Below are positions 1,001-40,600 of a DNA stretch of 64,000 nucleotides, in pieces. The notes beneath the pieces were generated by a model. That model was given only the letters and a program-made list of their open reading frames with translations. It searched no databases and was not told the DNA's origin. This DNA is from Galerina marginata. Taxonomy: Eukaryota > Basidiomycota > Agaricomycetes > Agaricales > Galerinaceae. Position 1 is the stretch's first letter; every line of letters begins with the position of its first letter. The stretch lies in the NCBI GenBank assembly GCA_023014335.1, contig JAECYW010000003.1, forward strand, positions 4,030,001-4,094,000, read 5' to 3'. The position numbers and the translations under genes are program-made.

Positions 1001-1019
1001 CCACTTGTTTAAACACCCC

Positions 1020-2620: not shown

Positions 2621-2724
2621 GTTCCTTCATGTACTAGATTACTCATTTATCAATGTTGTATTCCATGAGGTTGCGTACCATCTTCAGATATAATATAGCC
2701 TCGTTTGAATAACTTCTTGTTTGT

Positions 2725-7600: not shown

Positions 7601-7639
7601 AAGAAGTGGTCAAGTATGTTGCCGTAGGTCCAACCAGAG

Positions 7640-9965: not shown

Positions 9966-9971
9966 ACCAGA

Positions 9972-11760: not shown

Positions 11761-12129
11761 TGCTCCCTCATACTCGAGTAGATGAAAAAGACAGAATTCA
11801 ATAATACACTGCGTTAATATATGGACAAAAAAGATGGTCCACAACGTCATGGAATACAATACAGATAAATTGGTGGCAAACGAAGAGGAAGTGCAGGTGA
11901 GTTTCGACAGAAAACGAGGATAGAATCGTTGGTCAAGTGTCGGAAGCGGTATTATATATAGGATATTGCCTTGAATATTATAGAAAACGAGAGAAAAACG
12001 CAAGAAAGGTGAGAACAAAATAGAGTGGTCAACAAAGATCATGAAGCCGGTGTCTCGCTTGACGGTCGAACATCGACGCAAACTGATGTCATGAGGGCTT
12101 CTTCTACGTTTAACCGTTATCCCAAAATC

Positions 12130-12665
12130 GTGAGAACTATTTCAGAGGGTCGCGATAGATGAGGTGGTTAAGGACGTACCTAAGCTGTTGCTCTTCCTGT
12201 GAAAGAGAAACAATTAAACGAAGTACATGAAACATGAGAAGGTAACACTGACAACAGTGAAAATTTGCAAGTGCGGCATGAGAAAAGAGTGTACAAAGGC
12301 CACGAAGGTGTAGGCGGGTCTTCATGTTGAGTATCAGTAACAACGCAGACATTTCAGACATCTAGGCCGAATGATGAGAGATCGCAGATGACGGCGCAGA
12401 TTGCAAGTGGGTCGACGTTGGAGAGTTCTACAGGGTTTCGATGTTCTTTGGGCGCACAATTAAGCGCGGCCTAGAGGTTGGAGTAAGATGGAAGTGTCAT
12501 GACAAAATAAATCCAGATACGGACCAGCCAATAATCTGGGAATGTGGCAAATGCCAAATCTACAATTTCATCCTAAAATGTGACATAAAGATCGCTATTC
12601 CTCTAGAAAAGGACGTCAACCATGAATTTGACGACGAGGGCGACCGATCGTGTGGTGCGGGTGTA
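12130..12665 (-). pseudogene. Degenerate copy of the gene downstream of BRR2
   Basis: Minus-strand sequence matching the unidentified gene at 45,345-46,204 (MSALLLILNMKTRLHLRGL, then the EEQQLRYVLNHLIYRDPL exon). It sits in the same convergent position behind a BRR2 3' end. The 12,440-12,665 part matches 45,835-46,060 at nucleotide level, but the first exon is interrupted. About 80 bp present in the intact gene near 45,590-45,665 is missing here. This shows that BRR2 and its neighbour were duplicated as one segment. Confidence 0.75.
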
Positions 12666-19868: not shown

Positions 19869-22800
19869 ATGGCTGATAATCGCGGACAGACTGCCAAAGA
19901 GTCCAAAGGAATTCGCAGTCGACTGAAGGACTTCAAGAAGGCCATAGGACTTGGATCGCGGAGTACTAGTACGCCTCAAAGCCGCTCGAATTCGCCTGCG
20001 AACGTCGTTCAAGTTGCTCCGCCAGTCGCTACCGCGCCTCCGTCTGGTGTTTTGCCTCCACCACCAATTACTTTGCCACCACCTGCTTCTCAGCCTCCGC
20101 CTGTTGCTGAACCTCCCGTTATTTTGCCACCATCTGCTTCTCAGCCCCAGCCTGCTGCTGAAGCTCCAGTCGTTCCCGTGCCTGCAGCTGATTCCTCACC
20201 CGCTGCAACAATCGATCCAGTCACGGTTGAAGAAGCTGCAAAACTTCGGGAAAAATACACTCGCTTTCGCATTCTTGTTATTGGGAGGGCGAATGCTGGT
20301 AAAACAACGCTGCTAAAGCGGGTGTGCAATACAACTGAGGAGCCATCCATTTATGACGAGGATAAAAACCTGGTGAGCTCTCTGCTTATTTTCATATCTC
20401 ACTCTCATTATTTCTTCATCAACAGCTTGAACCAACCTCTGAGGTGTGGCTTGGTGATTTTTGCACCTACCTTAAACCAGATGACTGATGTCAACATTTA
20501 GCGTGGACTCCATGATGTTCATCGTTCATTTGTCTTTAAAAGCAACCCAGGTTTCATCTTCCATGACTCACCTGGCTTTGAGGCTGGGGGAGAGGAGGAA
20601 CTCAAGGCTGTGATGGCTTTCATTCACAAGTGCTCAAAGGCCACAGATGTTGATGATCAAATTCATGCTATCTGGTATGTTTTCATTACTGTTTTCAGTG
20701 CAGTTTTAGTGACTATGTGATCAGGTTCTGCTTCAATCCAGATGTATCTCGTCCTTTATCACTGTTAGAAAAGAAATTCTTCAATGAAGATCGTGCCTGG
20801 AATGGTAACCTCATCTGGATTATCTAAATGTTTATTGGAAAATGACAAAATACAGTCCCAGTTGTGGCAATCTTCATGAAATTTGATGATCTTATCAAAC
20901 AGGTCTATAACAGAAAAAAAGGCAAAGAGGAAAATGTCAAAAATGCATTGAATACTTTAGACACAAAATTCAAGCAGCCACTCAGCGACTACAAATTCTC
21001 TCCTCGTACTTATGTGCAATTTGAAGGTGGGTTATGTGTTATTCAGTAGCTGATCTTGAGACTGATGCCAAATCAGCTATCCACAAGGATGAAGGTGATC
21101 ATCAGAAACAGGTTGGGGAACTAATTAAACAGACAGCAGCATCAATCGACAATCTTGCACTGAAGATGCTGTTTGTCACTATTCAACAAAATAACATGGA
21201 GCTTTGTATTGAATATGCAGTGAATGAGTATGTTGCACACTTTTCTATTCTTGCTGAAACTTATTTTGTGTTGCAGATATATCTTTGTTATTACTAATGA
21301 TGTGGTATGGTTTTTTGAAAATATCAGATATGCCTCTACTGAAATGAATATAGGTGGATTTGATTGAAAAAGTTGCAAGTTGGTTTGGACATTGCTACAG
21401 AACGGTATGTAATAATATTAAATGTTGTTTTCTAAATGACAGTGGAAGTTAAAAAGGATTATGTGAGAAAATTTCTTGTGTGTCAGAAATTGAACACATT
21501 GGTGATAGATTTTAGGATGTAAGTAATATACTATTCCTTATAAAAAATAGTATTGACAGACATATTTAGTATGTAAGTATAATGATTAAAGTGTTGGACA
21601 ATTACCTTGGACAATTACCTGAGAAGTAATTTCAAAGGGAAAAAAGGTCAGATTTGAATTAATTACAGAATAATATCTGAATACAGTTTACAGATGGTGA
21701 TTAAATGGATTATTAGTGGTTAATTTTAATTGCTGACAATTCTTCCACCAAATTCCATCCAGTCTGTGAGTTGTGTGCACATTCATAAGCTTGATTTTGA
21801 TTGCTGACATTTCCTGCATCAAATTCCATCCAGTTGGTGAGTTGTGTGCACATTTATGAGCTTGATTTTGATTGCTGACATTTCCTGCCTCAAATTCCAT
21901 CCAGGCAGTGAGTTGTGTGCACATTCATAAGCTTGATTTTAATTGCTAATATTTCCTGCATCAAATTCCATCCAGGCAGTGAGTTGTGTGCACATTCATA
22001 AGCTTGATTTTAATTGCTAACATTTCCTGCATCAAATTCCATCCAGAAAGTGAGTTGTGTGCACATTCACAAGCTTGATTTTAATTGCTGATATTGACTG
22101 CATCAAATTCCATCCAGACAGTAAGTTGTGTGCATGTTTATGAGCTTGATATTAATTGCTGACATTTTCTGTATCAAATTCCATCCAGTTGGTGAGTTGT
22201 GTGCACATTCATGAGCTTGATTTTGATTGCTGACATTTTTTGCATCAAATCTCATCCAGGCAGTGAGTTGTGTGCACATTCATGAGCTTGATTTTGATTG
22301 CTGACATTTTTTGCATCAAATCTCATCCAGGCAGTGAGTTGTGTGCACATTCATAAGCTTGATTTTGATTGCTGACATTTCCTGCATCAAATTCCATCCA
22401 GTTTGTAAGTTGTGTGCACATTCATGAGCTTGATTTTGATTGCTGACATTTCCTGCATCAAATTCCATCCAGGCAGTGAGTTGTGTGCACATTCATGAGC
22501 TTGATTTTAATTGCTAACATTTTCTGCATCAAATTCCATCCAGTTGGTGAGTTGTGTGCACATTCATGAGCTTGATTTTGATTGCTGATATTTCCTGCAT
22601 CGAATTCCATCCAGAAAGTGAGTTGTGTGCACATTCACAAGCTTGATTTTGATTGCTGACATTTCCTGCATCAAATTCCATCCAGACAGTAAGTTGTGTG
22701 TACATTCATAAGCTTGATTTTGATTGCTGACATTTCCTGCATCAAATCCCATCCAGGCAGTGAGTTGTGTGCACATTCATAAGCTTGATTTTGATTGCTA

Positions 22801-23502
22801 ATATTTCCTGCATCAAATTCCATCCAGAGAGTGAGTTGTGTGTATGTTCATGGGCTTAATTTTGATTGCTGACATTGTTTATACAATGCCATCCAGCCAG
22901 GGAGTTGTGTCTTTTATAGTTATTTTTTATAACTAATGTATCATTTTATACTTCATCCAGTTTGTAAGTACTCTAGTAAATCATTTTGTTCTGTACCCTT
23001 AGTGAATCTGTATACCATAGGTAAATAGGATTAAAGATGTTACTTGTGCCCACTTCAATGTATGTTTTTATTATTATTTCTCTCTGCCTATCAATTCTAA
23101 TTTTTATAGATGCCATCTTTGAATGCTTTTATAGGTCTGATCAGAGATGTTTCTTTCTATATAATTTTTTGTCTTATCATTATATGCTTAGCAATTCTGA
23201 TATGTCTTGAGCATTCATTCTGGCTTACTCACTCTGGCTCCAGTCCTACCGAAGCCTTCATTCAAGCCTTGGACACCTATATCAAGGAAAAAGATGCAAT
23301 CCTTAATCAAACATTGGATAAATACTTGAAATCAAACCAGAGCAAGGACTGGTTTGTGATAAAATATAAACCATCTGATGATGAGTGCATAGACATCAGA
23401 AACATCATTCTTAACAACCTTCTTTGTATGATCAGCTGTTGTCTTCATTACCTTAATGTTGCTGATATAATATTTTCAGCTCGTCCAAAACCTATTGGAT
23501 AA
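19869..23502 (+). CDS. P-loop GTPase with Pro-rich N-terminus, interrupted by a repeat-filled intron
   Basis: Starting at MADNRGQTAKESKG, the protein has a basic segment, a long Pro/Ala-rich linker (about residues 40-115) and then a G domain. Its G1 loop is GRANAGKT (about 20,284-20,310), G3 is DSPGFE (exon from about 20,502) and the G4-like motif is MKFDDL (about 20,877). Further exons read KMLFVTIQQNNMELCIEYAVNE and IFVITNDVVDLIEKVASWFGHCYRT (ending near 21,404). A donor GTATGT follows, then about 1.7 kb containing the 71-bp array. Likely C-terminal exon(s) lie at 23,110-23,502, including TEAFIQALDTYIKEKDAIL. It is a paralogue of the 15.5-kb GTPase but has no CaaX. Whether the long interruption is spliced out, or the gene is truncated after CYRT, is unresolved. 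Confidence 0.7.
21720..22970 (+). repeat. 71-bp tandem array, about 17 units, each intron-like
   Basis: The anchor TTGTGTGCAC recurs at 21,771, 21,842, 21,913 and 21,984 and continues at 71-bp steps to 22,836, with decayed end units to about 22,970. Each unit begins GTGAGT or GTAAGT (5' splice-site-like) and carries TTGCTGAC or a variant (branch-site-like). It ends CCAG (3' splice-site-like). Consecutive units are separated by 3 nt that vary: TCT, TTG, GCA, AAA, ACA, TTT, AGA. The array lies on the coding strand of the surrounding GTPase gene. The period is not a multiple of three, so it is not a peptide repeat. Confidence 0.9.
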
Positions 23503-23639: not shown

Positions 23640-24290
23640 ACCAAGTTTGTGCAACAGAAATTACATAATCAAGAAAGAATTCGGAGCCTTGTTCGAATTC
23701 GACTCCGCAGACTTTTCTCTTACCACCATCTCACAATGTCTGGCTGAGGAAGACCCCGATTTTTTTCGGGTACAGCTACGGCGCCATCTTGTCGCTAGTG
23801 CTAACAACACACAGGGCAGCTTTACTACGACCGGACAAGGATGGTGCTCTTGCTGGTCGGACCAATGCCAAGGAGGATACTACAGGTCGGGCGTTCAAGT
23901 TCTCGATACGAACAAAGAAAATACAGTTGTGGGCGAGGACATTGAGGGCTCGACATATTGCCCACGGACAGCGGAGACGCGCCGAGTTTGTGGGCTCTTT
24001 TTGTCGGTGGTTCATACCTTGTCGGAGACCACGCCCGCGACATCATACGCCGCGCTGCGGATGTCGTGCTCGAGACGCTCAAGAACGAAAACACGGAGGA
24101 TCTGGACAAGAAAAAGGAGGTTGAGGAGGTTGTCGGGCTCGTCTCGACTGAGCAGTTCTCCCAGCTCGTCAACCTGCCCGAGAAGATCACGGACTACAAC
24201 CCGGACGATTCTCCAACGGGCTCGGTTTCTGTGTCTCAGTCTGGTCGAGGTATACCCGGCCACTCTGGTTGGACCTACGGCACCATCTCG
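23640..24290 (+). pseudogene. BRR2: BRR2 5'-end relic, copy 4
   Basis: The leader (ATTACATAATCAAGAAAG, TTCGACTCCGCAGAC) precedes a decayed start (23,736: MSG-like in a shifted frame). Brr2-like blocks follow in several frames: NYG-like [48 protein letters not shown] and [20 protein letters not shown]. After ITDYNPDD it leaves Brr2 into the shared tail SQSGRGIPGHSGWTYGTISSL. It lacks residues equivalent to 55-95, as copy 1 does, which suggests copies 1 and 4 are closest relatives. Confidence 0.86.
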
Positions 24291-24299
24291 TCGCTCGAC

Positions 24300-26450
24300 G
24301 CTCGTACGTACTTGTCCACTTGTTTAAATACCCTATGCTGAGGATGCATGGTTAGATAATTGGTTTCGATAAATGATGCATGGAAGTTTATCGATGAACA
24401 CGGAGCTGTAAGTAATAAAGAGGAGCAGGTCAGAACATCATTCAGGATGAGGAGGAGACCCGAATCTCAGAGCATTGTAGGTATGACATCATCCCGAATC
24501 TTACCTTCTGATCCTGACGGAATTGTAGGTTCTGTGTCCATTCGTTTTCGAACATCTTACTATAATGGGATTTGGAAACAATACATATATTTACCTACTT
24601 GGATTCTAGTTTTTCCCGTCTCCACTCCACTCCTTCTTTTATTCAACCTCCTGCTCGTTTTCGTCATCTTTCTCAAGCATCTCGAAGTTGACGATGACGA
24701 CAGCGCATATATTCACGGGTTGGTACATTCTGCCCATCCTCCTCACGCTCGACACGTGCTGAGGTTCTCGCCGACCTAGGCTGCAGGTGCCTTCTGTTCT
24801 GTCTGTGTTTGCGTATGTGGATTGTCCGTCGTTTTTTTTTCTTCGTTTGCTGACTTGTTGACCTCGTTACAGTTCGATGCGGACCTATGAGGAATTTGAA
24901 CGCACCCGCCAACGATCAAGTGAGTGTTAACGGTGTCAACGTACCTCGCACTGACTTTGGCCTCCCCCTTCCCGTCCAGCGCGAAGAAACGGCGTCACCT
25001 CGTCTTTCGTGGCCTTCTTTTCGCGACTACAACTAGTCGACGTCGCCGGCCTCGGGTCTGAAGATGTGATGTGCGGGCTCCAGTACCTATGCCCGTCTTC
25101 CTCTCAACCATCATCCTTGTTTGTGGAAGTCGACAGGATCAACATATCATCTAGATCGCAAAGGACATGCTCGACACACCTGGATCTCAGAAACGCAAGT
25201 AGGCAAGGAATAACATCGAGATTCGAAGCATCATCCTGAATTCCTATCTACCCTGCCTTTGACCCCACTCGGCTCACGGAATCAGCCCATCCGAGCATCT
25301 CGAAGTGGACGGCAGCTGCGGCGGCGCATACATCCACGAGTTGGCACGATTTGGCCATCTATCGCACGTTTGACCTGCACTTACGCTTTCTTCGACCTAG
25401 GCAGGTGATTTTTCGTCTTTCCGTGTTCATATGTGGATTGGTGGTCGTTTCGTTTCGTTTCGTTGCGTTTGCTGACTTGTTGCCCTTGTTGCAGTTCGAT
25501 GCGGACCTATAGTGAATGTGGAAAGAGTACACCCTCCAATGATCAAGTGAGGCTTAAGGGTCTCAAGTTACTTGCACCGTCCATTACGAGCAACAGGGCG
25601 TCGGCGATGCCTGCGACTACAAATAGTCGAAGCCGCTGCCTTCATGCCAGAAGGTCATGGTGTGCGGCTTCAGTACGTATGCCCGTTTCCTCTCCACCAC
25701 TGCCCTTGTCTCCAACGCCGGCCACTCTCAGCCCTCCTCCTCAACACACCTGCCGTCTCCGACTCTAAGGAGACGAGGGCGATAGCGGCGACGATTGGAA
25801 TGATCGAAACTGCTATTCGTTGGTTAAATGGTTGATCAATGGTCTGCTGCTCGGTATAACGCCCTCTCGGCCTCCGCACCTGCGACCCCAGCTGGTATCA
25901 TATGCGGCTTTGCAATCCCCCTTAGCAGGTCGTGCCCCACTCTCCTCCGCTCCTCCTCCTGCTGGATGAGGTGATAACATGATCATGGCGGCGGATGTCA
26001 TCTGCGGCTAAACAAGTCCGAGGTGGTGGATGGTAATGCATGTGTGTGTGCCGTGGTTGCAGCTGCCCGAGTTTACCTTGACAGCTGGGCTGGCACGGCG
26101 GAGAGCGGTAAAAAATGAAGCAAATATTTTGATACTACTGAACCATTTCTTACCCTTGTGCCTAGGTTACGGCGAGTTGTTTTGTACCAGGTAAGCGTGA
26201 TCCGCTTTGGCCCTAATTCTCGGTCTCGCTCTAATCAACCTTATTTCATCAGATATTGTATCTGGCCCGATATCCTTTTTTATGATCCATGCCCTCTTCA
26301 TGAGAGAGATCATGATAACCGTGTGGTCAAAAACAACTCAGGCAAGATGTCACTACGCAGATTCTAAGTATTGAGATTCTATGGGTGATTGTGGTATGAC
26401 TCAGGTGAAAGTGTTCTGAACTTCTTCAGATGTAGCTTTGGGCATAACCT
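24300..26450 (+). repeat. Cassette array between two BRR2 5' copies
   Basis: Heads occur at about 24,370 (ATGATGCATGGAAG) and 25,110-25,260 (CTCGACACACCTGGATCTC). Bodies begin AGCATCTCGAAGT near 24,677 and GAGCATCTCGAAGTGGAC near 25,293. Each body has a GTAC donor-like motif, a CTAGG...CAGGTG junction (24,776; 25,398) and a GCTGACTTGTTG...TTGCAG or TTACAG end. Bodies are followed by TTCGATGCGGACCTAT. A CTGCCCGAGTTTACCTTGAC block lies near 26,065 and an intron-like copy near 26,115-26,165. The plus-strand frame 24,360-24,779 includes HLEVDDDDSAYIHGLV, which is also readable in other bodies, so a decayed protein-coding origin is possible. Confidence 0.6.
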
Positions 26451-26668
26451 CTCTTTGGGGCCTAGTACTTTTAGTGTAGCAAATATACTTGGTTCAAACA
26501 AATCCGAAGAAAAGGAATACTGCACCCAACTGTATCTCGGATTAAATACAGTCAGTAAGGTGGGGGAGTCATATCCGAATTTTGCCCGACATAGCAATTA
26601 CATAATCAACAAGATTTGCAGACGCGCTGCCGCGGTTCGACTCAGCAAACTTTTCTCTTCTTACCACC

Positions 26669-28280
26669 ATGTCTGGCCGAGGAAAACCTGATCTTTCCGG
26701 GTACAATTACGGGGCCATCTCGTCGCTGGTGCTGACGACGGACAGGTCAGCTTTACCGCGACGTGACAAGGAACCAGATGGCGCTCCAGTTTCTCTCGCT
26801 GGTCGAATTGACCCCAAAGACATGGGATCAAGGGTTATTCGACAGGCTCCAAAGGACCTCGACAAGAAGAAGAAGAAGGCTGTGGAGGGCGCTGACCCCT
26901 CTGAAAAGGCTGCTGTGAAGCGCAAGGCCGAGGCAGCTGGATTTGGCTACGCGGATATCATTGAGGCGACTCAGGATGTTGAAGGGTTGACGTATCGCCC
27001 TCGGACGGCTGAAACACGCCAGGTGTACGAGCTCATCTTGTCTGCAGTCCATACCTCACTTGGAGACCAGGCTCAGGACATCGTACGCAGCGCCGCGGAT
27101 GCCGTGCTCGAGACTCTCAAGAACGAAAACATGAAGGACTTCGACAAGAAAAAGGAGGTCGAGGAGGTCGTTGGGCTCATCTCAGGCGAGCAATTTTCCC
27201 AGCTCGTCAGTTTGTCCAAGAAGATCACCGACTTCAACGCGGACGACGAGACGATGGCGGACCCAGACCAGGAACGCAAGGACGCCGAGATTGACGAGGA
27301 GGGTGGAGTTGCGGTCGTGTTTGACGAGGAGGAGCAAGAGGAGGAGGACGAAGAGGGTTTTGAAATTCGAGAGGACTCCGACGAAGACGAGGACGAGGGA
27401 GAAAACGAGGATGAAAACGAGGTAGAAGCCGAGGGCCACGACGAAGACATCGTCATCGGAGGCGAAGCTTCGGGGAAGAACAAAGTCAAAGCCGAAAAGG
27501 ACATTGTCTCCCCTCACTCCATCGACGGCTTCTGGGTTCAGCGACAAATTTCAGAAGTCTATCCCGACCCCGTCACCGCCGCCGACAAAGCAGCATCGGT
27601 ACTTAGCATCCTTGGCTCCGAATCCAGTGCCCGCGACGCCGAAAACCAGCTTATGGAACTGTTCGAGTACCAAAGCTTCCACATTACCGCGAAATTCCTC
27701 AAGAACCGTGAGGTCGTCGTCTGGTGCACGAAGCTGATGCGAAGCGACGCCGAGGAGAGAATCAACGTCGAGGTGGCGATGCGCGAAAAGGGTCTGGGAT
27801 GGATCCTCCGCGACCTCGCAGGCGATCGACAGACGAAGGCAAGCAGGTCCGACGCGATGGACGTGGACGAATCCAAACCGACACAGGTTCCGAAGACCGC
27901 CACTCTCGCTCCTGGCTCGACACTGCAGCCCAAACGCACTGTTGACCTGGAAAGCATGGCGTTCTCGCAGGGCGGGCACTTGATGTCGAACAAGAAGTGC
28001 AAGCTACCGGACGGGTCGTTCAAGCGGGCGAAAAAGGGCTACGAGGAGATTCATGTGCCCGCGCCGAAGCAGAAGCCCGTGACGGAGGGCGAGTTGGTGC
28101 CAATTTCGAGCCTGCCCGAGTGGGCGCGCCAGGCTTTCACGGTGCCGAAGCTTAATCGCGTGCAGAGCAAGTTGTACCCTGGATGGACGAACGAGGTGTG
28201 CGATCAGTTTCTTTGTTTTCACTTTGATCTCTGACATGTTTTTACAGATGTTTCTTATGTTTTCAGGCACGAACATATAA
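26669..28280 (+). CDS. Stand-alone Brr2 N-terminal-region protein (truncated BRR2 duplicate)
   Basis: An open frame from the same [15 protein letters not shown] start as intact Brr2, preserved for about 504 residues up to NRVQSKLYP. It then switches at about 28,179 to unrelated sequence (GWTNE), just before the first helicase domain would begin. The frame stops at 28,232-28,234. If a 52-bp intron (28,196-28,247, with CTGAC branch site) is removed, it ends MFLMFSGTNI at 28,280. Only three amino-acid differences from intact Brr2 are visible, against dozens of silent changes. It carries the Lys-rich segment, the long acidic tract (about residues 215-265) and the conserved block up to the helicase. 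In known Brr2 proteins this region regulates and restrains the helicase, so a regulatory role is inferred. The alternative is a very recent pseudogene. Confidence 0.75.
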
Positions 28281-29090
28281 AAAGTGAGTATATTTTGAAA
28301 GTAGACTAACTATAAACGTACTAGATCGTGTTTAAAAGTGCAAGTTTCCAACGACCTGTCCCCTCCTTTTATCCGTACATGCAGAGGTTCTCCCACCCCG
28401 AAGGGCAGGAGAACACGCCGACGGGTGTGGGGTACACCCGTCGACGATGGCACGGAGGAGGAGAGGGGATGGGGACGTGAAGGCGAGGGAATGACGAGAG
28501 GATGGGGAGCGGAATAGATACGCACCATGTCTCAATGTACGTAGCCAGTAGTTGTCAATAAACCGGTTTAGCCTCCCATCCGTGTCCTAACCATCCTATC
28601 AACCCCTACTCCCTCGTCGCCGCTGTCGCTAACCGTATCCCATTCCGTCTGAATACTTTCGAGAAGGTCGTCTGGGCTGTTAGACTGAATATAAGACTCA
28701 AAAATACCTAGGAAATGTGAGGAAATTCGTACCATCAATGAATTATATGAGTTCTTCGCCCGTAAGTAATGCCTTTCGTAGATCCGGCTTCACGTCGAAT
28801 TGTAGGGTCGGAGGTGGGAAGCGAGATGCGTAAACCGGAAAAAAGCCTTCAAGTTGAATTGGGTGGGACATTCGTAGATGGGTCTTCACGTTGAATTGGG
28901 TGGGTGTCCTCGTCGAACTGTAGCGTCGGAGGTGGGATGCGAGATGCGAAACTCAGATAAAAGGCTTCAATTTGGAGCTCAGAGGCGATGGTCGGGAAGA
29001 GTCAGATTAAACGCGAAAGCAATAAAATTAGCGCAGTACTGAAGAAAGGGACACTTATTAAATAACATTGCCCTGTTCTACCTGCATCCA
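28281..29090. other. Region without a recognised gene, with a short direct repeat
   Basis: Two direct repeats (about 28,785-28,860 and 28,865-28,975) share CTTCACGT, GTCGAATTG/GTCGAACTG, TAG.GTCGGAGGTGGGA, GCGAGATGCG and AAAAGCCTTCAA or AAAGGCTTCAA. The remainder shows nothing identifiable. Confidence 0.4.
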
Positions 29091-29099
29091 AACATCCAA

Positions 29100-29890
29100 C
29101 TGCCTCTCCGAACATCTGAATATCGAATTTGAGGGTGTCAGGTCTATCCCATTGTCGAGGCGATCGGCGGAACTCTGAATATCAAGTTAAAATCTCATCA
29201 GTAAGGAAACAAGACTGACAGAGAATCAAGGCTTACCGCGCAACATAAACCCGTTTCCCGGACGCCCATATATCAAGTCGGAGTCCCTACAGCCTCTATG
29301 ACGACCAGGCAATTGGCGGAATGCTGAAAGTCGAATCGGAAGCTGGATAGTGGGAATTATAAGATGAAACAAACGAAAAGGAACAAACGAATAGCTTACC
29401 ACTGTATACCGTTTCCCGGAAGTCTAAATATCAAGTCGAAATTTCTGCCCGCTTCAGAGGCTCGCTAAGGCTTCAAATCATTAATTAGACCTCAAATGAA
29501 AGAAGTAGATAGCCGTATCTTACTCACAGCGTTGCCCGGAATTCCAAATATCAAGTCGGAAATCCCAGCTGCTTTGGAAGCTTCAAAGGCTTCAAATAAG
29601 TAGTTAGACTTCAAATTAAAATAGTGGATAGCTGTATCATACTCACAGCATTTCCCGGAACTCCAAATATCAAGTCGGCATGTTTGGTCCCTTCAAAGGC
29701 TTCAAAAATAACAAGTTAGCCCCGAAATTGAAAGATTAGATAGCCATAGCCTACTCACAGCGTTTCCCGGAACTCCAAACACCAAATTGGATTCTTCAAG
29801 GTCCTATAGCAAGACCTGCATACCAAAATATGAGCATAGGTCCATAAGAAAGAGGAGAAATGAAACTCACGACGATGAAGAGGAAACATG
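29100..29890 (-). repeat. Tandem array of exon-intron-like units (minus strand)
   Basis: Read on the minus strand, five or six units follow one another. Each has a block with GACTTGATATTTGGAGTTCC or variants (readable as DLIFGVPGN), then GTGAGTA (donor-like), a CTAAC/CTAAT branch-like site and a TTTGAAG acceptor-like end. The best units span about 29,400-29,770. Modelled exons are about 53, 62 and 71 nt, differing by 9 nt and each leaving remainder 2 on division by three, so the reading frame rotates from exon to exon. A possible first ATG (MFPLHR) lies at 29,888, but no continuous protein could be assembled. Confidence 0.6.
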
Positions 29891-30321
29891 ATGGTCACTG
29901 TCGAAAAAGGAAGGTCAGGGTAATGTTTGGCGCATCACCATGATCACGCACCAAATATAACAGATAAGATCGTGATCAGGCTTCGTCGTCGACAACGATG
30001 ATGAGGGGAGGATTGGGCGCAGATGCCGCCATAATGCAGGCATTACGACGACATGGGGGGTACCCTGTTTCGGTGGGTGAGTACCTACCTTTATACCTAT
30101 TTTCTTGCCAAGCATCTCAAGGCCACTAACACAGCCGTCTAAGATCTAAGTTCTCGCTGCTTGCCTGTTCGCTTCAACATTTAATTATGAATCTCATAGT
30201 AGCCTCTTAGTTCCTTATTAGTGAATCATTTCGCTTAATTGAACCCTGAGTTTTCGGATCACTCAAGTCTGAATCATTCTCTTACTGAGTCCTGACCATT
30301 TGAATTCTTATATTCTCTCAC

Positions 30322-30408
30322 AATTCCAGTACCATTTCTCTCACAAAAATTTATCTGCTAGCCAATGGCTACCAAATAATATTTTCTGAGTGAGATGGTA
30401 CTGGAATT
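30322..30408. repeat. Fold-back element with about 19-bp arms
   Basis: AATTCCAGTACCAT...CTCAC at 30,322-30,344 pairs with GTGAGATGGTACTGGAATT at 30,390-30,408, with a small bulge in the first arm. The loop contains a nested TAGCCA-A-TGGCTA palindrome. It could be a miniature inverted-repeat element or an RNA hairpin. Confidence 0.7.
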
Positions 30409-30584
30409 TCCAGTCACTCAAGGGAAAAGAAATAAAATCACAATGGACTACTCACCAAATCTGCAGGGTCCTGTCAAGATGCAAGCCCAGAGAATTCACG
30501 CCGCTGACAGGATTCTCGCCTGAGAATCCACATTAGTGAGGTTCTCCGGCTCCGAGGTGTCACTTTGCCTCAGCTGCCGGTCCT

Positions 30585-30607
30585 CTGAATATTTGAGAAA
30601 TATTCAG
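30585..30607. repeat. Perfect hairpin, 10-bp stem and 3-nt loop
   Basis: CTGAATATTT, GAG, AAATATTCAG. The stem is perfect but AT-rich, and no T-tract follows that would mark a terminator. Function is unknown. Confidence 0.65.
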
Positions 30608-31162
30608 TTTGTGAATTTGGGTAAAATTCATAATTCAAAATGAGATAAAAGATTTATTTGCTCACCAGGAAGTACACTGTAAATTTTGTTTTAAAGGTAA
30701 TTAAAATCTACTTGGAATATTAAGCAAGAAATGTATAACAATCAGGGAAGGTACTTCTCGGGGTGTATGAATCCACTCCTCCGAATAAGGGCGTCAAATG
30801 TGACTGTGCGGCACGCGCAATTGCCGCGCGCATCCCCGAAATTTCCGAAATTTGATTGCCATCGACATCTCTTTCTCAAACTCCCACCTTCACACCCGCT
30901 CTGCCATATCGTCAAATTGCCTGGTGAGTCTCTACAATATTATTTCTAGCCCATCCCAGCTCACCATCACATTTCTTGCTAGCTTCTGTGTGTGTAATTT
31001 CGCTCCTGCAAGTTGCATGCTTTATTTTCACCTTTGTGAAAGTCTCATAACAAAACTCACAGTACGGAACTTTCAACTGCCCATTCATCCCAATATTTAA
31101 CTCTGATGAATTATCCGCTGTAGAGCACTGCAATGACACGGCCGCGGCATGGAGGCGCGGTT

Positions 31163-31690
31163 TGAGATGCAATCGATCGCATCCATGGGCTACTTTCGGA
31201 ATCCCAGTGTACCACGCGACCTTGGGAATTCTGTTATATCAAACGGCCAGGTAAGCTTGTTATTCCCTCTCTCAATTTATTTACTAACTTGGACTTAGGT
31301 TTTACACCCCATGTACAGTCGACGAACATGTGCGCTTATCAGCTGTTTTCAGCCCGAAACAGTGAGTCTTAGAGCTTTGTTTTTTTGATGATATTTGACT
31401 TACGATTTCACTGTACTTCATCAGAAACTCTCATTCGCCATTAGCTACCGTAGTTGGCCTTTTAATTCCCCTCATTGTCGACTTCTACCACCCCTATAGC
31501 TTTGTTACTGGTTACCCGGCTGCTGGGAACAAAGCTATATTGAGTGTTCCGTGCTCATTTCCTTCTCTTTGACCGTATCCAACTTCTACCACCCATATGA
31601 CTTTGTTACTGGTTACCCGACTGCTGGGAACAAAGTCGTATCGAGTGTTCTGTGTTCATTTCCCCTTTTGCGCCAATGGAGAAGATCGCA
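31163..31690 (+). other. Possible spliced short gene with duplicated hairpin segment
   Basis: A frame beginning MQSIASMGYFRNPSVPRDLG (ATG at 31,167) runs to a good donor (CAG|GTAAGCTTG) and an acceptor (GGACTTAG). The next exon reads VLHPMYSRRTCALISCFQPET, followed by another donor GTGAGTCTT. The third segment contains two approximately 100-bp direct repeats, each with a hairpin (31,495-31,539 and 31,595-31,641). Each repeat reads FYHPY.FVTGYP.AGNK in one frame, but a TGA separates them. Product unrecognised; it may be decayed or non-coding. Confidence 0.35.
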
Positions 31691-32739
31691 ATGTCCATCT
31701 CAAGGTACTTAATACCCTAATCACATTCTAATTATGTTTTCGTAACTTATCTTCAAGTTACACAGCAGATTCTGTACTGGCAGTTGCGTTTAATTAGCGC
31801 TGCTGTTCTGAACTTCCGAATTGACAACTCTGTAAGTTTAATTTAAATCAAGGTATGTGAGGAACCGCAGATTATAAGCTGTCGGTTTTGTTATTTGATC
31901 CGTAAGATCAAGCGCTTAAGCGCTTAACTGTTAAACCGGCTGAGATTGAGAAATTAAATTACGTGGTAGGATAGCTTATTTCCCTTTTAGATAGAACTTG
32001 GATTGAATGATCGGGTGACCATTGTCTCCTCCGTCCCTGCTTCATGTTTATTTGGAGACGGAGGCTTGTTCATTTCTTCTTCGCTTCTTGTTTTTGGTTC
32101 CGCATTTACCACTTTCTGGGCTACCATGTATTGCCGTTTCATCGCCACCCATGACGCGAAGGCCATGGCGTCATATCCTTGAGGTGTGGAATGCATCGTA
32201 ATCCTCGGATATGGTACGGCAGCTCCATTGAGCCGTCATACTTCCCTTCCTCCATCCCTGCTTTCGCCAATTGACTTCCTTTCTGATTCTTAATTTTCGG
32301 TTCTCTATTTGCCTCTGGTCTGTGGGTTTACTTGGGAGTACCACTACGCGAGCAGAGGTCATGTCACAATCCGAGAATCGCGCAGGTCCTCCAATTAGCC
32401 ATTGTATACTTAATCCTCCACCCCCGCTTCCTTATTTCTCTTGCGAAAACTGACCCATTTACTTTACTTTATTTTTAGGTAATTGGATATTTGGATACCA
32501 CTGGTCCAGTGGTTAATTGGGCGGTTGAACGGTTGAATGGAAGGCAATGACAATGGGCGCCTATTTTGATGTTTAGAAGACATTGTCAAATGTCCGAGTC
32601 TTTTTTCAGTTTTCTCTTCAATAAATAAATTAAATTGGAGTCCAAGTAATAGATAGAGTAGATTACAAAATAACGAGCACTGAAATATTGGAATTGGAAC
32701 GGAGATTGCTGAGATTGCAAGACAGCAGAGCGGTATCAA
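31691..32739. other. Region without a recognised gene
   Basis: Contains AAGCGCTTAAGCGCTTAA near 31,912, a short palindrome, and TCCTCCGTCCCTGCTT-type blocks near 32,025 and 32,255 that resemble the start of the 490-bp repeats downstream. No gene was seen. Confidence 0.35.
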
Positions 32740-34360
32740 ATGCCGCCCGATTGATCATCAAACCATCTCCTCCGCCGTCCCCTTTTCCCCGTTAAACTGT
32801 AGAAAAAATACTCGGGTCTCATGCTTTAACTTTATTACTCGGACCCGATTAGGCTGGGGTCCTGTAAACGCATGATGATCGAGTTCGAAGGGAGAAAACG
32901 CAACCATGGCACTCATAATTGTGGGGGTGTACTGTAATTGCATTTCACCTTTAACATTAACTTGGTAGTACCCATGAAGAAGAGTATTATTGAAATTAAT
33001 ATATGAGATCTTATTCTCGAGTGTTGTGGATATAAACGGGTGCGTAAGCGAAGGAGCGGCACGGTAGGTTGCGGGCGCTTATGCGCGCTGCGAATCGCGC
33101 AGACTACGACTGCTTAGCATCCTTGGCACGCAGTGCAATAAACCAGAATGAAATAAACACGTATATTGACTGGAGTTGCATCACAATCAATTGGTCTGTA
33201 AATCAGCAATTAGAGAAGGGTTTGTGGGATCAGAAAGCACTATGGTATGCTGTCCGGTTAGACCACCTGCTCCTCCATCCCCTGTTCTCCGTTTCACCCC
33301 AAAAAAAAACACTCGGCTTTTCGTGAATCAATTCCACTAGTCTTATTCGCTTCCGATTAGGCCAAGGCGCTGTCAATGCAAAACGGACGAGGAAAAGGCG
33401 GCATTTGAGCAGCTTGGAAGTCTGTAAGTGTACTTGAATGCATTTGACGTCTAATATTAATCTGATCATAATTTTGAAAGAGATCCTGAATAAAATCAAT
33501 GTATTGGATTTTAGTTACTAATAATACGCAGCTAAACGGGTGGATGAACAGAAGGAGCGCCTGGTAAGCGGTGGGCGCTTATTTGTGCAAAATACGACTC
33601 CCCGTCTCTTTAGCCACCACTGTAATAAATCGGAAGAATAAAACCATAACATTGACTAAGAATACACTAATGGACAGGTATGTACTCGAATCTGCAGATT
33701 AGAGCAGCATTTGGGACACGAAGGCGCTACCGTGCAATCAAATGACCTCGTCCTCCGTCCCCCTTTCTCCGTTTAATTCCAAACATTCGGACCCGTTTTC
33801 TTCGCGTCGCATCACTTGGCGCTATCTGCTTGTTCAGTTAATGCTAGGCCAGGGTTCAGTGAAGTTATCGAAGCCAGTCTGGCGCAAACGACTCGAGAAG
33901 CGTGTGTGGCGGTTTCTTTCTCGTTTAGGCGCCGACCTTCGCTGCCTTGTGTATGTTTCGTAAATTTAATTCAAAGATCCTAGGAATACAAATATATTAG
34001 GTCACAGAACCCGTGGAATAGAGTACGTACGAATACCTAATTAATTAGAGGCGAGAGCGAGCGGCGGAGACGAAGGGTGAGGCAGTGGACCCGAGATCAA
34101 GATATCTCCGAGTCTTGCATCTCCTCCGTCTCCCTTTCCGTTCTCTTCTCCAAAAAAAAGTGGTGCGTTTTGGCTGCTCGGTTCCTTTTACTATTCGCTT
34201 CGCGCTAGACTGGGAAGATGAGCTAACGAATGTCCAAGGAAAGCTTTTCGAAGCTGCGTCCCGGGGCTATGTTTCGCAATTCAGTGCGTTTTGCGATCTT
34301 CCCAATTCCAGCCGCTCTTGGGACGCCTTGGGATCTAACGAGATGGTTTTTCTAGTTTAG
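32740..34360 (+). repeat. Diverged direct repeats of about 490 bp
   Basis: A block reading (C)TCCTCC(G)TCCCC...CCGTTTAA occurs near 32,765, 33,265, 33,750 and 34,125. The first three are followed by ACTCGG or ATTCGGACC and a GATTAGGC or GCTAGGCC block. The units also share AGCGAAGGAGCGGCACGGTA or GAAGGAGCGCCTGGTA, then GCGGGCGCTTAT or GTGGGCGCTTAT (33,040-33,080 and 33,555-33,585). The spacing is about 490, 490 and 375 bp. No coding frame is shared between units. Confidence 0.55.
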
Positions 34361-34489
34361 TCCTACAGGTTTAATTCATTGTTTGTGGGTCTAGAGTTTG
34401 AGGGAGGAAGCATTGGGATTTGTTGGTAGGACTTGCCTTTCAAGTTACACTTTTGGTACGAGTAGTTAGTTAGAAATAAATTCAATCAA

Positions 34490-37310
34490 GCATGGAAAGC
34501 TTTAAGAAACAGATTAAAAGTATCAGGATATCATGCAGAACACGACGGAGAAGATATTCGACACACCTGAATCTTAGAAACGAATCAGCGGGAGGTATGT
34601 TGTCTCCCCGATCTACCCATACGATCCCGTTCGGCTCACGGAATTGCAGGTGCAGGGTCCAGTCCGACTTGCCAACAATTCCCGTTATCGATTATCCCAC
34701 TAGCCGTGGTTCGTTGATTCCGTGCTAAGGCTATACCGAATACAGGAGGTGGAAAAAAGGTATATAGGCTTACACGAATTCGAAGACATTCCCCATCCCC
34801 TCTTCCGTCTCCTCCTCTCCTCTCTTCCCTACTCATCTTTCTCTTCTCGTTTGTACCTCTTCACAGCGGTGGTGCCCACACCCGCGATCTTGTGCGATCT
34901 GCCTGCCCACTACATGTTCGCCCCGCGCTGACATCGACGCCGACATATCTAGGTGCCTTGTCATCTGTCCGTGCCTGCGTATGTGGTATCTTCGCCGTTT
35001 CGCTTCGTTTCCCACTTGCTGACTTGTTTACAGTTTCAATGAAGACCTATAGCGAACGGGAAGATCAGCCAACGATCAAGTAAGTTTTGACGGTCTCGAC
35101 GTACCTGGCAGCAACTCTGATCCTCTCTTCCTCCTTGCCCAGCGTCCAGCACGAAGGTAGCGACAGGCTAGGCCTCGAGCTCTCAGGTAACTCGTTGTCC
35201 GCGTATCCTTCCTGCTGTCGCGCTGATTTCGTGTTCGTTTGCAGGAAAGCCAGCTTTCAAAACAAATCAACGGTAAGTACAGCTCTTTGACGATCGGATA
35301 TATAAAAACTTACCTAGGTGTTTGCAGTGGCGGGCGCTGTCGGTTTGCGAGTGGTTAACGAGCAAGGTGAGCCCGTCTTGCACCTCTGAAATCGTCGACG
35401 CCGTGGCTGATCCTCACATCTTCATGGAAGCAGCAGCGGAACCTTCGGTACGTGTTTCTTCGTCTCGATGGCTTATCGCGGCGTTGCTGACGAGGTGCTC
35501 GCAGGAGTTGGTGCTGCTGGGATGCGAAGGGACAACGAGCACGGTAAGCCCGTCCTGCTGCCATGGAATCGTCAACACCGCCCGCTGACCCTCGTATCTT
35601 CGAAGAAGCAGCACGAAGGATGGGCGGAGGGAGTCCTGGGTACGTGTTTCTCCAACTTGCTGGCTTCTCGCGATGTCGTTGACGTGCTTGCAATTCGCAG
35701 CCCTCCTTTCCTGGTTTCCAGGCCCCGCGTCACAGATCCACTGCGTAAGCCCTCTCCCTCATAGCCTCCCGCGGCCTCGTTGACGTCCTCGCCTCACGTA
35801 GCTCTCCCTCCGCCGGTTTTCTGGGCCTGCATCCTACATCCACGACGAACGACTGGGAAGCGCGGCGACTATGGAAATAGTCGAGACCGCTGTCCATCAG
35901 TTGCCTGACGGTTTGCGGCCTCGGTAGGTTTTCCCGTTTTCCACTGCACCACCCGCCCTTATCCCTAACGCCCACTCCTCGCAGCCAGGCTCCACATCAC
36001 ATCCACCATGATGACGATGGAAGCAGCGCCGACGACTGGGAGTAGTCGACGGCCTTGGTATGTTCTTCCTTCCCCCTGCAGCACCCGTCCTTCTCCCTAA
36101 CTCCTGCTTCTCGCAGCCCTCCTCCTAAACATACCCGTGCACTCCGATGAGGAAGATACGACGGCAGCGGCGACTGGAATAGTCGAGACCGCTGTCCGTT
36201 GTCGATAGATAGTCTATGGCCTGGTCAGTCCTCTTTGCACCTCGAGCCCCGCCCCATCTCTAACGGTTCCGCGAGCAGCCTTTCTCCTAGGCCCTATTCC
36301 CCTCCACCAATCCTCGAGCTGCGAATCGAGGTGATAAGGATGACGGTGGCGACGACTGGAATTAGTCGAAATCGCTGTCCATGCGTCGACTGGTGGTCTA
36401 TGGCGCGGTACGTTTCCCTTCGCACCTCGAGCTCCCCACGTCTCTAACGGTTCCCAGGGCAGCCCTCCTCCTTAGCAGGCCAGGCCGTATTCTGCTCTTC
36501 GAGCCACGGAACGAGGTGATAACGGCGATGAAGGAGCAAGACGACTACTGGAAATAGTCGAGATCGCTGTCCCTAGTTGACAGCGAGCGCGGAGTCTTCC
36601 TAGTCGCGGGTAGAAGGGAGGATGGCTGTGTGGGTGAATCTGGGGTTGAAGGTGACGGCGGCAGGTTCGGGGGTGAGCTCGGTGATGATTTGAAGTCGTT
36701 TTCACGATTTCGACTAATTTTCACGCAGGGTTTGCTGCAGCTTTGAGGTGATAGGCATGGAGCTGCGTGGGTTTGAGATTTTGAAGAATGCTAGAAACCG
36801 GGTAAGCAAGCATTTGATATTAATGAATCATTACTTACTTGTGCGCCTAGGACTACGATCTGGGTTCCAGTGTGAGTTCCGTGCTCAGTTCTCGGCAGGC
36901 ATGGAGGCGGGTGTGCGTGCGCCGTGGTTGCCTGTGACCGAGTTTAACTTTTCAAGGGTGTTAGAATCAAGGTAAGTAAGCATTTAGTACTAATGGACTA
37001 TTACTTACCGATGTAGCTAGAACAACGAACCCGTCGAACCGAGTCCCACGACGAGCTCGCGGGAGCTGTGTGTGCGAGCCCAGTGGATGCTACTACCGAA
37101 TTTAAGTGCTGAAAACGAGGTAAGTAAACATTTGATACTAATGAATTATTTCATTGCTCACCTACGCGCCTAGGACTACGAACCGAGTTTTATGGTGAGT
37201 TCCATGCTCCGTTCTCGCGACGTTGAACTGATTTTCACGCAGGACAGCGACTGCGATTAGACAGAGCAATGCTAGAAACAAGGTAAGCAAGTATCTGATA
37301 TGAATGAACT
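34490..37310 (+). repeat. Composite cassette array upstream of intact BRR2
   Basis: In order: a cassette head near 34,500-34,660; a partial body with CTAGGTGCC (34,950) and TTTACAG (35,030); two approximately 178-bp units near 35,360 and 35,540 with CTTCGGTACGTGTTTCT-like donors; five units with GACTGGAATAGTCGAGACCG-like cores near 35,874, 36,041, 36,177, 36,361 and 36,553; and four intron-like GTAAGTAAGCATTTGATAC blocks near 36,800, 36,972, 37,119 and 37,281. Parts recur in minus orientation at 8.3-9.9 kb. No continuous protein could be assembled. Confidence 0.6.
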
Positions 37311-37315
37311 GGTAC

Positions 37316-37550
37316 TTACCTCGAAACTAAAGACAGGGAGCCCGCCGTAGAAAGCGATATGGCCATGCACACGATGGGCAGAGGGCCAGGTTGGGCTGGT
37401 TGATGGCATCGTCGTATGGGGGGCAAGGACGCGGGCCGGGGAGACGTGGTTGAAAGTTGGGTTGTGCGACAGAGGGACGGGTGGAATGAAGACGACGAAT
37501 CTCTTCTTGAGAGTCTGGGAGCAGGGAGGTGTCTATGACGTTTGTACGAA
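37316..37550 (-). pseudogene. Trace of the divergent neighbour gene
   Basis: On the minus strand DSQEEIRRLH... at about 37,510 aligns with PDSQEEPYEL of the 13.05-13.77 kb gene, sharing TCTTCTTGAGAGTCTGGGA. The rest (Pro-rich, frame open to 37,316) shows little similarity. It is interpreted as a leftover of a gene that once diverged from BRR2. Confidence 0.3.
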
Positions 37551-37585
37551 CAAGTCAGATAAACAGAGTCAATGTGAATTTCGTA

Positions 37586-37667
37586 TGACTTGGCAATTAC
37601 ATAATCTACAACATTTTGCAAACGCGCTGCCGCGGTTCGACTCAGCAAACTTTCTCTTCTTACCACC
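37586..37667 (+). promoter_or_regulatory. BRR2: BRR2 leader conserved in all 5' copies
   Basis: GACTTGGCAATTACATAATC, GCAAACGCGCTGCC, GGTTCGACTCAGCAAAC and CTTCTTACCACC precede the ATG. The same blocks precede the copies at 425 (last part), 8,208 (minus), 23,736, 26,669 and the trace near 13,990. This DNA was therefore copied with the coding sequence. No clear TATA box is present within it. ACCACCATGTCT gives a favourable start context. Confidence 0.6.
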
Positions 37668-40600
37668 ATGTCTGGCCGAGGAAAACCTGATCTTTCCGGG
37701 TACAATTACGGGGCCATCTCGTCGCTGGTTCTGACGACGGACAGGTCAGCTTTACCGCGACGTGACAAGGAACCAGATGGCGCTCCAGTTTCTCTCGCTG
37801 GTCGGATTGACCCCAAGGATATGGGATCAAGGGTTATTCGACAGGCGCCAAAGGACCTCGACAAGAAGAAGAAGAAGGCTGTGGAGGGCGCCGACCCCTC
37901 TGAAAAGGCTGCTGTTAAGCGCAAGGCCGAGGCAGCTGGATTTGGATATGCGGATATTATCGAGGCGACTCAGGATGTTGAAGGGTTGACGTATCGCCCT
38001 CGGACGGCTGAGACACGCCAGGTTTACGAGCTCATCTTGTCGGCAGTCCATACCTCACTTGGGGACCAGGCGCAGGATATCGTACGCAGCGCCGCGGATG
38101 CTGTACTCGAGACTCTCAAGAACGAAAACATGAAGGATTTCGACAAGAAAAAGGAGGTCGAGGAGGTCGTCGGGCTCATTTCGGGCGAGCAATTTTCCCA
38201 GCTTGTCAGCTTGTCGAAGAAGATCACCGACTACAACGCGGACGACGAGACGATGGCGGACCCAGACCAGGAACGCAAGGACGCCGAGATTGACGAGGAG
38301 GGTGGAGTTGCTGTCGTGTTTGACGAGGAGGAGCAAGAGGAGGAGGATGAAGAGGGTTTTGAAATTCGCGAGGACTCCGACGAAGACGAGGAAGAGGGGG
38401 AAAACGAGGACGAAAACGAGGTAGAAGCCGAGGGCCACGACGAAGACATTGTCATCGGAGGCGAGGCTTCGGGGAAGAACAAAGTGAAAGCCGAAAAGGA
38501 TATTGTTTCCCCCCATTCCATCGACGGTTTCTGGGTCCAGCGACAAATTTCAGAAGTCTATCCCGACCCCGTCACCGCTGCCGACAAAGCAGCCTCGGTA
38601 CTCAGCATCCTTGGCTCCGAATCCAGTGCCCGCGACGCCGAAAATCAGCTTATGGAGCTCTTCGAGTATCAGAGCTTCCATATCACCGCGAAATTCCTGA
38701 AGAACCGTGAGGTCGTCGTGTGGTGCACGAAGCTGATGCGAAGCGACGCCGAGGAGAGAATCAACGTCGAGGTGGCGATGCGCGAAAAGGGTCTCGGATG
38801 GATCCTCCGCGACCTAGCAGGCGATCGACAGACAAAAGCCAGCAGGTCCGACGCGATGGACGTTGACGAGTCCAAACCCGCACAGGTGCCCAAGACCGCC
38901 ACTCTCGCTCCTGGCTCGACTTTGCAGCCCAAACGCACCGTGGATTTGGAGAGCATGGCGTTCTCGCAGGGTGGTCACTTGATGTCGAACAAGAAATGCA
39001 AGCTGCCGGACGGGTCGTTCAAACGGGCGAAGAAGGGCTACGAGGAGATTCATGTGCCCGCGCCGAAGCAGAAGCCCGTGACGGAGGGCGAGTTGGTGCC
39101 AATTTCGAGCCTGCCCGAGTGGGCGCGCCAGGCTTTCACGGTGCCGAAGCTGAATCGCGTGCAGAGCAAGTTGTACCCGATTGCTTTCGGGACGGACGAG
39201 CCAATCTTATTGTGTGCTCCCACTGGTGCTGGCAAGGTATGCCTTATCATCCTAACAAATAATCTTTATGCTCATTAAATTTTTTCAGACCAACGTCGCC
39301 CTCCTTACAATTCTTAACGAAATGTCGAAGCATCGAAACGCTGAAACGGGCGAGTTCGACCTCGACGCCTTCAAAATCGTCTACATCGCGCCCATGAAAG
39401 CCCTCGTTCAGGAGATGGTCGGTAACTTCACCGAACGGCTCAAGGTCTTCGGAATCAAAGTCGGCGAGCTTACTGGCGACTCTCAAATGACCAAGCAGCA
39501 AATCGCAGAGACGCAGATTATCGTCGTCACTCCAGAAAAATGGGACGTCATCACACGGAAGCAAACGGACACGAGCTACACGAACCTTGTGCGGCTCGTC
39601 ATCATCGACGAGATCCATTTGCTGCACGACGACCGTGGTCCAGTGCTCGAGAGCGTTGTAGCCAGAACTATTCGGAGGATGGAGCAAACACATGAGTATG
39701 TGAGGCTGGTAGGCCTGTCGGCGACGTTGCCGAACTACCAAGACGTGGCGACGTTCCTGCGGGTGGACGAAAAGAAGGGGCTATTCTACTTCGACGCGTC
39801 CTACCGGCCATGCGGGCTCCAACAACAGTTTATTGGGGTGTCCGAGAAGAAGGCCATCAAGCGGTACCAGATCACGAACGAGGTGTGCTACGAGAAGGTC
39901 TTGGACCAGGTTTCGAACAAGAACCAAGTCCTCGTCTTCGTGCACTCGCGCAAGGAGACTGCGAAAACCGCCAAATTTTTGAAGGATATGGCCATAGAGA
40001 AGGAGACGATCACGCAATTCGTTAGGCCCGATGCTGCGAGTCGCGAAATCCTGCAAGAGGAAGCTGGCAGCGCCAAGGATCGGAATCTCAAAGAACTGCT
40101 CCCTTTCGGATTCGCCATTCATCACGCCGGGATGTCCCGCGAGGACCGTGTCGTCGTCGAGGAACTGTTTGCGGACAACCAGGTGCAGGTGCTCGTCTGC
40201 ACAGCAACACTCGCCTGGGGTGTCAACCTTCCCGCGCACGCGGTCATCATCAAGGGCACCCAGATTTACAACCCCGAGAAAGGGAAGTGGGTTGAATTGT
40301 CCTCGCAGGACGTGCTGCAGATGCTCGGGCGCGCCGGTCGCCCGCAGTACGACACGTACGGCGAGGGCGTAATTATCACGAACCACAGCGAGCTGCAATA
40401 TTATTTGAGTCTGCTGAACCAGCAGCTCCCGATCGAGAGCCAGTTCGTGGCGAAATTGGCTGATAACTTGAACGCGGAAATTGTATTAGGTACGGTCAGG
40501 AATCGGGACGAGGCGGTTCAGTGGTTGGGTTATACCTATTTGTAAGTTTCTTTTCGTTATCCCTGAATATTTCGTGAAACTGATTGGAATGTCTACAGGT

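Follow-up and report, generated by a model that had tools for sequence, protein, structure and literature searches.

A probable displaced start of BRR2 lies next to a repeat that recurs between duplicated gene starts in Galerina marginata

A truncated duplicate with a dN/dS ratio near zero is often inferred to have gained a new function. The 64,000 nucleotide stretch of a Galerina marginata contig analyzed here (hereinafter the window) raises the question whether this inference holds for a copy of the start of BRR2, the gene for the Ski2-like spliceosomal helicase (SNRNP200), that is located upstream of the intact gene and encodes the plug and PWI domains but no helicase cassette. The copy (hereinafter f), its leader and the intact gene (hereinafter g) are as follows:

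26566-26668, forward strand: 5' leader of f, common to g (37566-37667), from the alignment of 26566-28179 with 37566-39178
26669-28179, forward strand: f, displaced copy of the BRR2 start (codons 1-503), an open frame that includes the plug and PWI domains, from the alignment to g and Pfam
37668-44954, forward strand: g, intact BRR2 (exon 1, 37668-39236; first intron, 39237-39288; later exons set by eye), matching the whole query

In the searched genome (69.3 Mb, 43 contigs), g is the only copy that matches the whole BRR2 query, all others being fragments, and we take it as the functional gene. The two copies align without gaps over 1511 nt (26669-28179 against 37668-39178), whereas upstream of the common leader their flanks are unrelated. 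The 79 differences between them comprise 76 synonymous and 3 replacement changes (Y189F, E242D and A405T, written from g to f), are distributed over codon positions 1/2/3 as 3/1/75 and are spread all along the copy (85-100% identity per 60-nt window across 26600-28159), with Ks of 0.267, Ka of 0.0026 and omega of 0.0096 (Nei-Gojobori, 503 codons). There is no frameshift and no stop in the BRR2 part of f, which corresponds to about the first quarter of the gene, and both domains are whole (Pfam BRR2_plug, 116-182, and Helicase_PWI, 276-383). Thus, f shares with full-length BRR2 the plug and PWI regions, with three differences in 503 residues, and differs from it in lacking both helicase cassettes and ending in repeat-derived sequence. 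A previous sequence-only reading had counted 26 synonymous differences and a single Phe/Tyr change over the first ~590 nt, which is exact (the replacement is Y189F), and three amino acid differences over ~504 residues, which agrees with our three replacements in 503 codons; the dN/dS of the two intervals is indeed far from 1.

The homology between f and g ends sharply at 28179/39178, inside BRR2 exon 1 rather than at an intron, and no BRR2 similarity was found when 28180-37565 was scanned. The break coincides with the beginning of the first helicase cassette, ahead of the Walker A motif (GAGK), at 23% of the gene, so that the earlier description of a copy ending just before the first helicase domain is accurate. 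Two features adjoin the break:

28180-28234, forward strand: non-BRR2 tail of the f open reading frame (ORF; 17 residues and a stop), a run-off into the left end of the repeat R described below, from ORF reading
28196-28247, forward strand: candidate intron-like GT...AG stretch, part of the R left end, from sequence only

The short new C-terminus that had been proposed to arise through an intron does exist as this 17-residue tail, but its stop (28232-28234) is reached without any intron, and a splice-like sequence resembling 28196-28247 is also present at the R left end beside an uncharacterized gene (gene X) and an EXO70-like gene; a GT...AG intron at 28196-28247 is possible. We also considered splicing across R that would rebuild BRR2 from f. 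The join would be in frame, but the Walker A stretch would be missing according to our reading of the sequence, and gene X breaks inside a single long ORF; this candidate was rejected.

To polarize the changes, we used Galerina marginata CBS 339.88, where BRR2 is intact (2164 residues), continuous through the f break point and 98% identical to the query over residues 1-510; for gene X, the identity to the CBS 339.88 protein is 91%. With this outgroup, f has two derived residues (Y189F and A405T) and g has one (D242E), and 8 further differences from CBS 339.88 are common to both copies. Among the exon 1 homologs that make up the best 120 of 522 matches to f, position 189 is Y in 119, position 242 has E in 96 of them and D in 12, and position 405 varies; only Y189F is firmly polarized. 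Had f been neutral since its split from g, ~140 replacements would be expected on the f branch (with fragment L055 for polarization) and two are seen, which bears out the earlier statement that neutral decay would have produced far more replacements and limits the neutral time to at most ~5% of the f branch.

These figures speak for f being a stand-alone gene, with a Brr2 N-terminal product that binds or restrains Brr2 in trans and is kept by selection: omega is 0.0096 over 503 codons, the frame is undamaged, both domains are whole and only two derived changes accumulated. The homologs do not point in this direction. No f-like G. marginata protein was found among the best 120 of 522 matches to f in a database that includes annotated proteins of the species, and the best match among these 120 is 87% identical; the Walker A-type motif missing from f is present in 119 of the 120 homologs listed, the remaining one appearing frame-shifted, and directly follows the position of the f break in the 27 homologs with tails read. 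Taken together with the comparisons below, in which the same signature appears at unrelated genes, we consider a trans-acting regulator unlikely.

The surroundings of f contain two elements that were absent from the earlier account, namely the repeat R that separates f from g and numerous other BRR2 fragments in the genome. The repeat is delimited as follows:

28180-37565, forward strand: repeat R, ~9 kb between f and g, from alignment to other R copies
28266-28290, forward strand: conserved motif of the R left end, GGCACRAACATATAAAAAGTGRGTA (25 bases), from a genome-wide motif search
36787-37343, forward strand: R right end, four repeated units, most with GGTAAG...CTTAC stems, from recurrence

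R can be aligned with its other copies from about 28192 or 28256 to 37342, and its last ~220 bp show no alignment between loci. The left-end motif is represented in the genome by 11 exact and 3 two-mismatch copies, compared with none in a reversed control; weaker left-end matches on contigs C40 and C5 are outside these 14. The right end recurs at other R copies and 5' of some older BRR2 fragments. Relatives that are colinear with R occur on C4, on C39 and at two other sites on C23, one of which has two copies; on C17, C27, C19, C2 and elsewhere, the relatives are patchier. The R copies differ from one another by 15-35%, and the one at BRR2 is ~15% different from its nearest relative in the genome.

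Protein coding in R was rejected on two grounds. A six-frame Pfam search of the window copy and most of the C39 copy (short of its right end) detected no family above the cut-off and no endonuclease or integrase-like domain, the best trace being DUF6444 (E = 0.074, below its cut-off), and the substitutions between R copies show no codon periodicity, in contrast to the f/g control, which does. No Rfam match was found in the window at the gathering threshold. A conventional LTR or long-TIR transposon was rejected as well: in the window copy, the R ends are not joined by any inverted repeat of at least 18 nt (8 pairs examined) or direct repeat of at least 25 nt (14 families examined), and the duplicated segment at BRR2 is 1.6 kb long. 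Helitrons are characterized by TC/CTRR ends, a 3' hairpin and a RepHel protein; the Pfam scans of R detected no helicase or Rep domain, and its right terminus is poorly defined.

The arrangement seen at BRR2 is not limited to this gene. We tested 11 of the 14 R left ends (the other three are on C2, on C19 and at C23:2757287), and in all 11 the gene segment on the left recurs beyond the R right end. Six R-flanked genes were identified, encoding Brr2, an EXO70-like protein, an MFS transporter, a Sec10-like protein (with a Sec10 helical bundle), a protein kinase and the uncharacterized protein X. The leader and first part of the gene duplicated to the left of R amount to 1.6 kb at BRR2, 2.2 kb at X and at least 1.1-1.6 kb elsewhere. 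The break falls at different positions in different genes, namely at 23% of BRR2, ~74% of X, near the end of the EXO70-like gene (profile position 353 of 372) and in the last codons of MFS (by eye); the displaced copies of MFS and the EXO70-like gene are complete or nearly so and those of X and the Sec10-like gene are truncated. At the three loci read far enough, BRR2, X and MFS, the gene to the right of R is intact. Some of the arrangements are stacked: the X locus has the layout start-R-start-R-full gene, and on C17 four Sec10-like starts, each followed by R, precede a fifth copy, the match to which ends before R begins. Downstream (3') of gene X, there is an ORF that by eye resembles a Tc1/IS630-type transposase.

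Left ends with the Sec10-like gene were found on C17 and C27, and the gene itself is present on three contigs (C17:666-712 kb, C27:8-20 kb and C19:71 kb). The distinct copies, truncated or not, differ by 5-7% from the queries N1 or N4, a spread that looks like that between alleles; two are identical to N4. One of the Sec10-like starts on C27 matches two C17 starts with 100% identity over 1,500 bases; an assembly duplicate or a recent segmental copy could explain this.

Observations of this kind bring up an assembly or haplotype artefact, whereby sequences of the two nuclei of a dikaryon were joined at R; f and g would then be alleles that never occur together on a real chromosome. The allele-like divergence, the presence of the Sec10-like gene on three contigs and the perfect C27/C17 match are what such an artefact could produce. 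It does not account for the left end of R, a conserved terminus that meets different positions in different genes, which implies that the gene-R junctions must exist as molecules; furthermore, four of the six R-flanked genes (BRR2, X, MFS and the kinase, with only a 71% relative of the latter on C10) have no second near-identical copy on another contig, and mis-joining would hardly yield stacked triplets and a five-copy array. An artefact of this type therefore appears very unlikely.

At all five loci measured of the six known (the kinase is the unmeasured sixth), the left and right copies differ mainly by silent changes. The synonymous and replacement counts are 76 and 3 for BRR2, 62.5 and 27.5 for X (with two 2-residue indels dropped and the tail after the break removed), 63 and 4 for MFS (exon limits set by eye), 23 and 0 for the EXO70-like gene (1,147 bp of the right copy, 262 codons, exon limits also by eye) and 40 and 2 for the Sec10-like gene, where two displaced copies were compared over three chosen exon pieces (288 codons). 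Gene X is the least constrained of the five (omega 0.14). Silent divergence ranges over the pairs from 0.13 to 0.27, and for each measured pair the counts firmly rule out neutral evolution of one copy from the split onward, under the assumption that half of the synonymous changes belong to each branch. Synonymous divergence exceeds intron divergence at MFS (0.214 vs 0.120) and at the EXO70-like gene (0.132 vs 0.081); because splice and branch sites impose constraint on short fungal introns, no conclusion on recoding of the working copy was drawn.

Hence the constraint is not specific to f: the same pattern is present at X, MFS and the EXO70-like and Sec10-like genes, including copies that are complete or cut elsewhere. 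Given that the same layout and the same low number of replacements occur at unrelated genes, it is improbable that each fragment acquired a new role of its own, and a signal shared by every measured gene with one layout more likely reports the time at which the fragment was cut off than what the fragment does. Gene X supplies a direct comparison: with the G. marginata outgroup, 9 derived residues are assigned to the truncated copy and 13 to the intact one (2 are unclear), so that truncation was not accompanied by more change, and both 2-residue indels are derived on the intact copy. Accordingly, of the earlier proposal that selection keeps the protein of a free Brr2 regulator, the purifying signature stands and is large, and the regulator is not favored.

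Use of other BRR2 fragments as outgroups gives a mixed picture of how the f/g differences are shared. The f:g partition is 26:23 with L055 and 28:24 with L056, and 8:8, 12:11 and 8:8 with three window fragments, whereas fragments of the same cluster load f more heavily (18:7 for L050, 14:9 for the minus-strand L052 and 10:6 for L049).

An indication of what happens to a displaced start over a longer time comes from the region immediately upstream of f:

23656-24208, forward strand: e, an older BRR2 start (within codons 1-193) that was displaced and has since decayed, carrying frameshifts and a stop, from alignment
24209-26565, forward strand: U, short degraded relative of the right third of R, between e and f (59-82% in pieces, mostly in order)

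We read e-U-f as an earlier start-repeat-start event at BRR2 of the same kind as f-R-g. When e and its relatives are pooled (8 of the 16 other fragment groups, namely the codon-193-type fragments of C23; L054-L063 were left out), 223 synonymous and 217 replacement codons are counted over the 8 copies, compared with 76 and 3 for f/g, and frameshifting gaps are present in 7 of the 8. The older fragments still show an excess of third-position differences, which indicates that each had a constrained phase before decay. Thus, a BRR2 start displaced earlier in the same way as f decayed, which speaks against a regulatory role of such products and, together with the recurrence at R loci and the 9 against 13 derived residues of X, makes recent truncation, which the sequence-only reading had entered as a caveat, the better-supported branch.

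Fragments of BRR2 are numerous: 31 pieces of the genome match f and 76 match g (themselves included), and many start fragments end at one common point, codon 193. Apart from e (23656-24208, +), those in the window are located at 372-900 (+), 2642-5773 (-), 7692-8301 (-) and 9957-12654 (+). The window region 372-12654 and C23:3.79-4.01 Mb contain a family of such fragments with the common codon-193 cut and common internal deletions, some of which have R-type right ends upstream; these seem to have arisen by segmental duplication inside a ~300 kb part of the contig. An apparent common truncation at codon 504 in copies on C15 and C17 turned out to be a query-end artefact, the copies running on into the helicase region. 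The 5' region of f (26370-26940) is 92-100% identical to the decayed fragment L050 (C23:3870.4-3871.0 kb), with 70-92% identity on both sides, and this tract likely results from gene conversion or other copying between BRR2 fragments, as judged from the identity profile.

The best reading of f, in our opinion, is that of a displaced 5' end of BRR2 rather than a new regulator, and we consider it probable, with considerable room for doubt, that f is the 5' end of a once-working BRR2 allele that was cut off very recently or is still whole in strains without R. Members of the R family are placed such that the leader and first part of a gene lie on the left and the same gene restarts on the right. 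Under this scenario, displacement would have occurred at BRR2 at least twice, producing e-U-f and then f-R-g, with the right-hand copy in each event serving as the working gene and the left-hand copy being cut off. The f/g divergence would have arisen while f still began a working BRR2 allele, in another haplotype or lineage; f would then have been severed only recently, or might still be part of an intact BRR2 in strains that have no R at this site. We infer that the duplication is tied either to R insertion itself or to unequal exchange at R, and exchange at R could also have brought the alleles or lineages together. By this account, f would have been functional until recently and would now have no product that matters.

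Several observations are at odds with the displaced-allele scenario. Alleles of one species would hardly be expected to show silent divergence as high as 0.13-0.27, no young source copy of R at BRR2 is visible in the genome, the older fragments likewise went through a constrained phase, as their third-position excess shows, the polarization is uneven with some outgroup fragments, with more changes on f (e.g., L050), and the other strain or haplotype that the scenario requires is absent from the data examined, nothing in which dates the break directly. The limit of ~5% on the neutral part of the f branch implies that the truncation is recent, or that R is absent from some chromosomes, or that selection acts on the fragment; a single genome does not distinguish among these three, and selection on f is possible.

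The age of the R copies bears on the last of these options. At gene X, the right ends of the two R copies, together with the adjoining leader, are 85% identical, that is, about as diverged as the neighboring gene starts, and this, along with the 15-35% differences among R copies, suggests age; if the X array is old in cis, the truncated X copies are under real constraint, and f may be likewise. All left copies at R loci could then have been constrained since old insertions for one common reason, for example because N-terminal products or transcripts are needed where R disturbs the intact gene, or because regular copying between left and right restores any copy. At BRR2, X and the Sec10-like gene alike, the truncated copy is clean, and copying between BRR2 fragments seems to occur (the tract shared with L050). 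Yet the older BRR2 copies decayed, and copying would erase synonymous differences too, whereas the f/g divergence shows no clear patchiness. We regard such a common constraint, with these two reasons taken jointly, as unlikely.

A further, more speculative possibility, which we consider quite unlikely, is that R and the gene start it carries constitute a selfish, gene-anchored nuclear unit with drive-like behavior. Such a unit would enter conserved genes and supply a diverged but nearly protein-identical 5' end, so that the gene keeps working, and would spread in the population by cutting or silencing unoccupied alleles, the starts of which (e.g., f) would be left behind. If true, this would be the natural equivalent of a cut-and-rescue drive, with a non-coding element at its core.

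The layout at R loci has a partial parallel outside the nucleus. Mobile endonuclease ORFs (mORFs) with duplicated gene ends are described in atp6, atp9, cox2 and nad3 of Glomus sp. mitochondria and in atp6 of Allomyces (PMC3630166). The two atp6 ends of Glomus sp. share 63.5% identity at the DNA level and 91% at the protein level, and for two of the four genes, atp6 and cox2, the mRNA no longer includes the native end (PMC3630166). Like R, these elements lie between two versions of one gene end and have hit several unrelated genes (PMC3630166). Mainly synonymous divergence between the two ends, a feature of this type of element, is seen at all five R loci measured. They differ from R in affecting 3' ends, being ~1 kb long and carrying an endonuclease gene (PMC3630166). 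R is associated with the 5' ends of nuclear genes, spans ~9 kb and has no recognizable coding capacity, and its mobility is a proposal made here; given the 5' location, the nuclear setting and the lack of a visible enzyme, we refrain from filing it as a member of the mORF class.

Bacterial integrative elements rebuild the end of their target gene, so that insertion in a gene is tolerated because a second end is supplied. R is unlike these elements in that no integrase-like domain was found in the Pfam scans and the duplicated segments are kilobases long. Ordinary tandem partial duplication followed by pseudogene decay resembles the decayed BRR2 fragments around the locus, but f differs in being undecayed and in belonging to duplications that affect several genes and go with a single repeat family, the left end of which is conserved. 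A limited search of the open-access literature found no equivalent of R in nuclear genes, so that precedent for the layout would seem to come only from fungal mitochondria. The R-linked duplication of gene starts is a more interesting finding than f itself, and poses the question of how such insertions are made and tolerated, which comparison of strains can test.

Finally, the window also contains, at 21649-22942, a tandem array of ~18 units of 71 bp (15 overlapping 300-nt matches, 73-92% identical to the reference).
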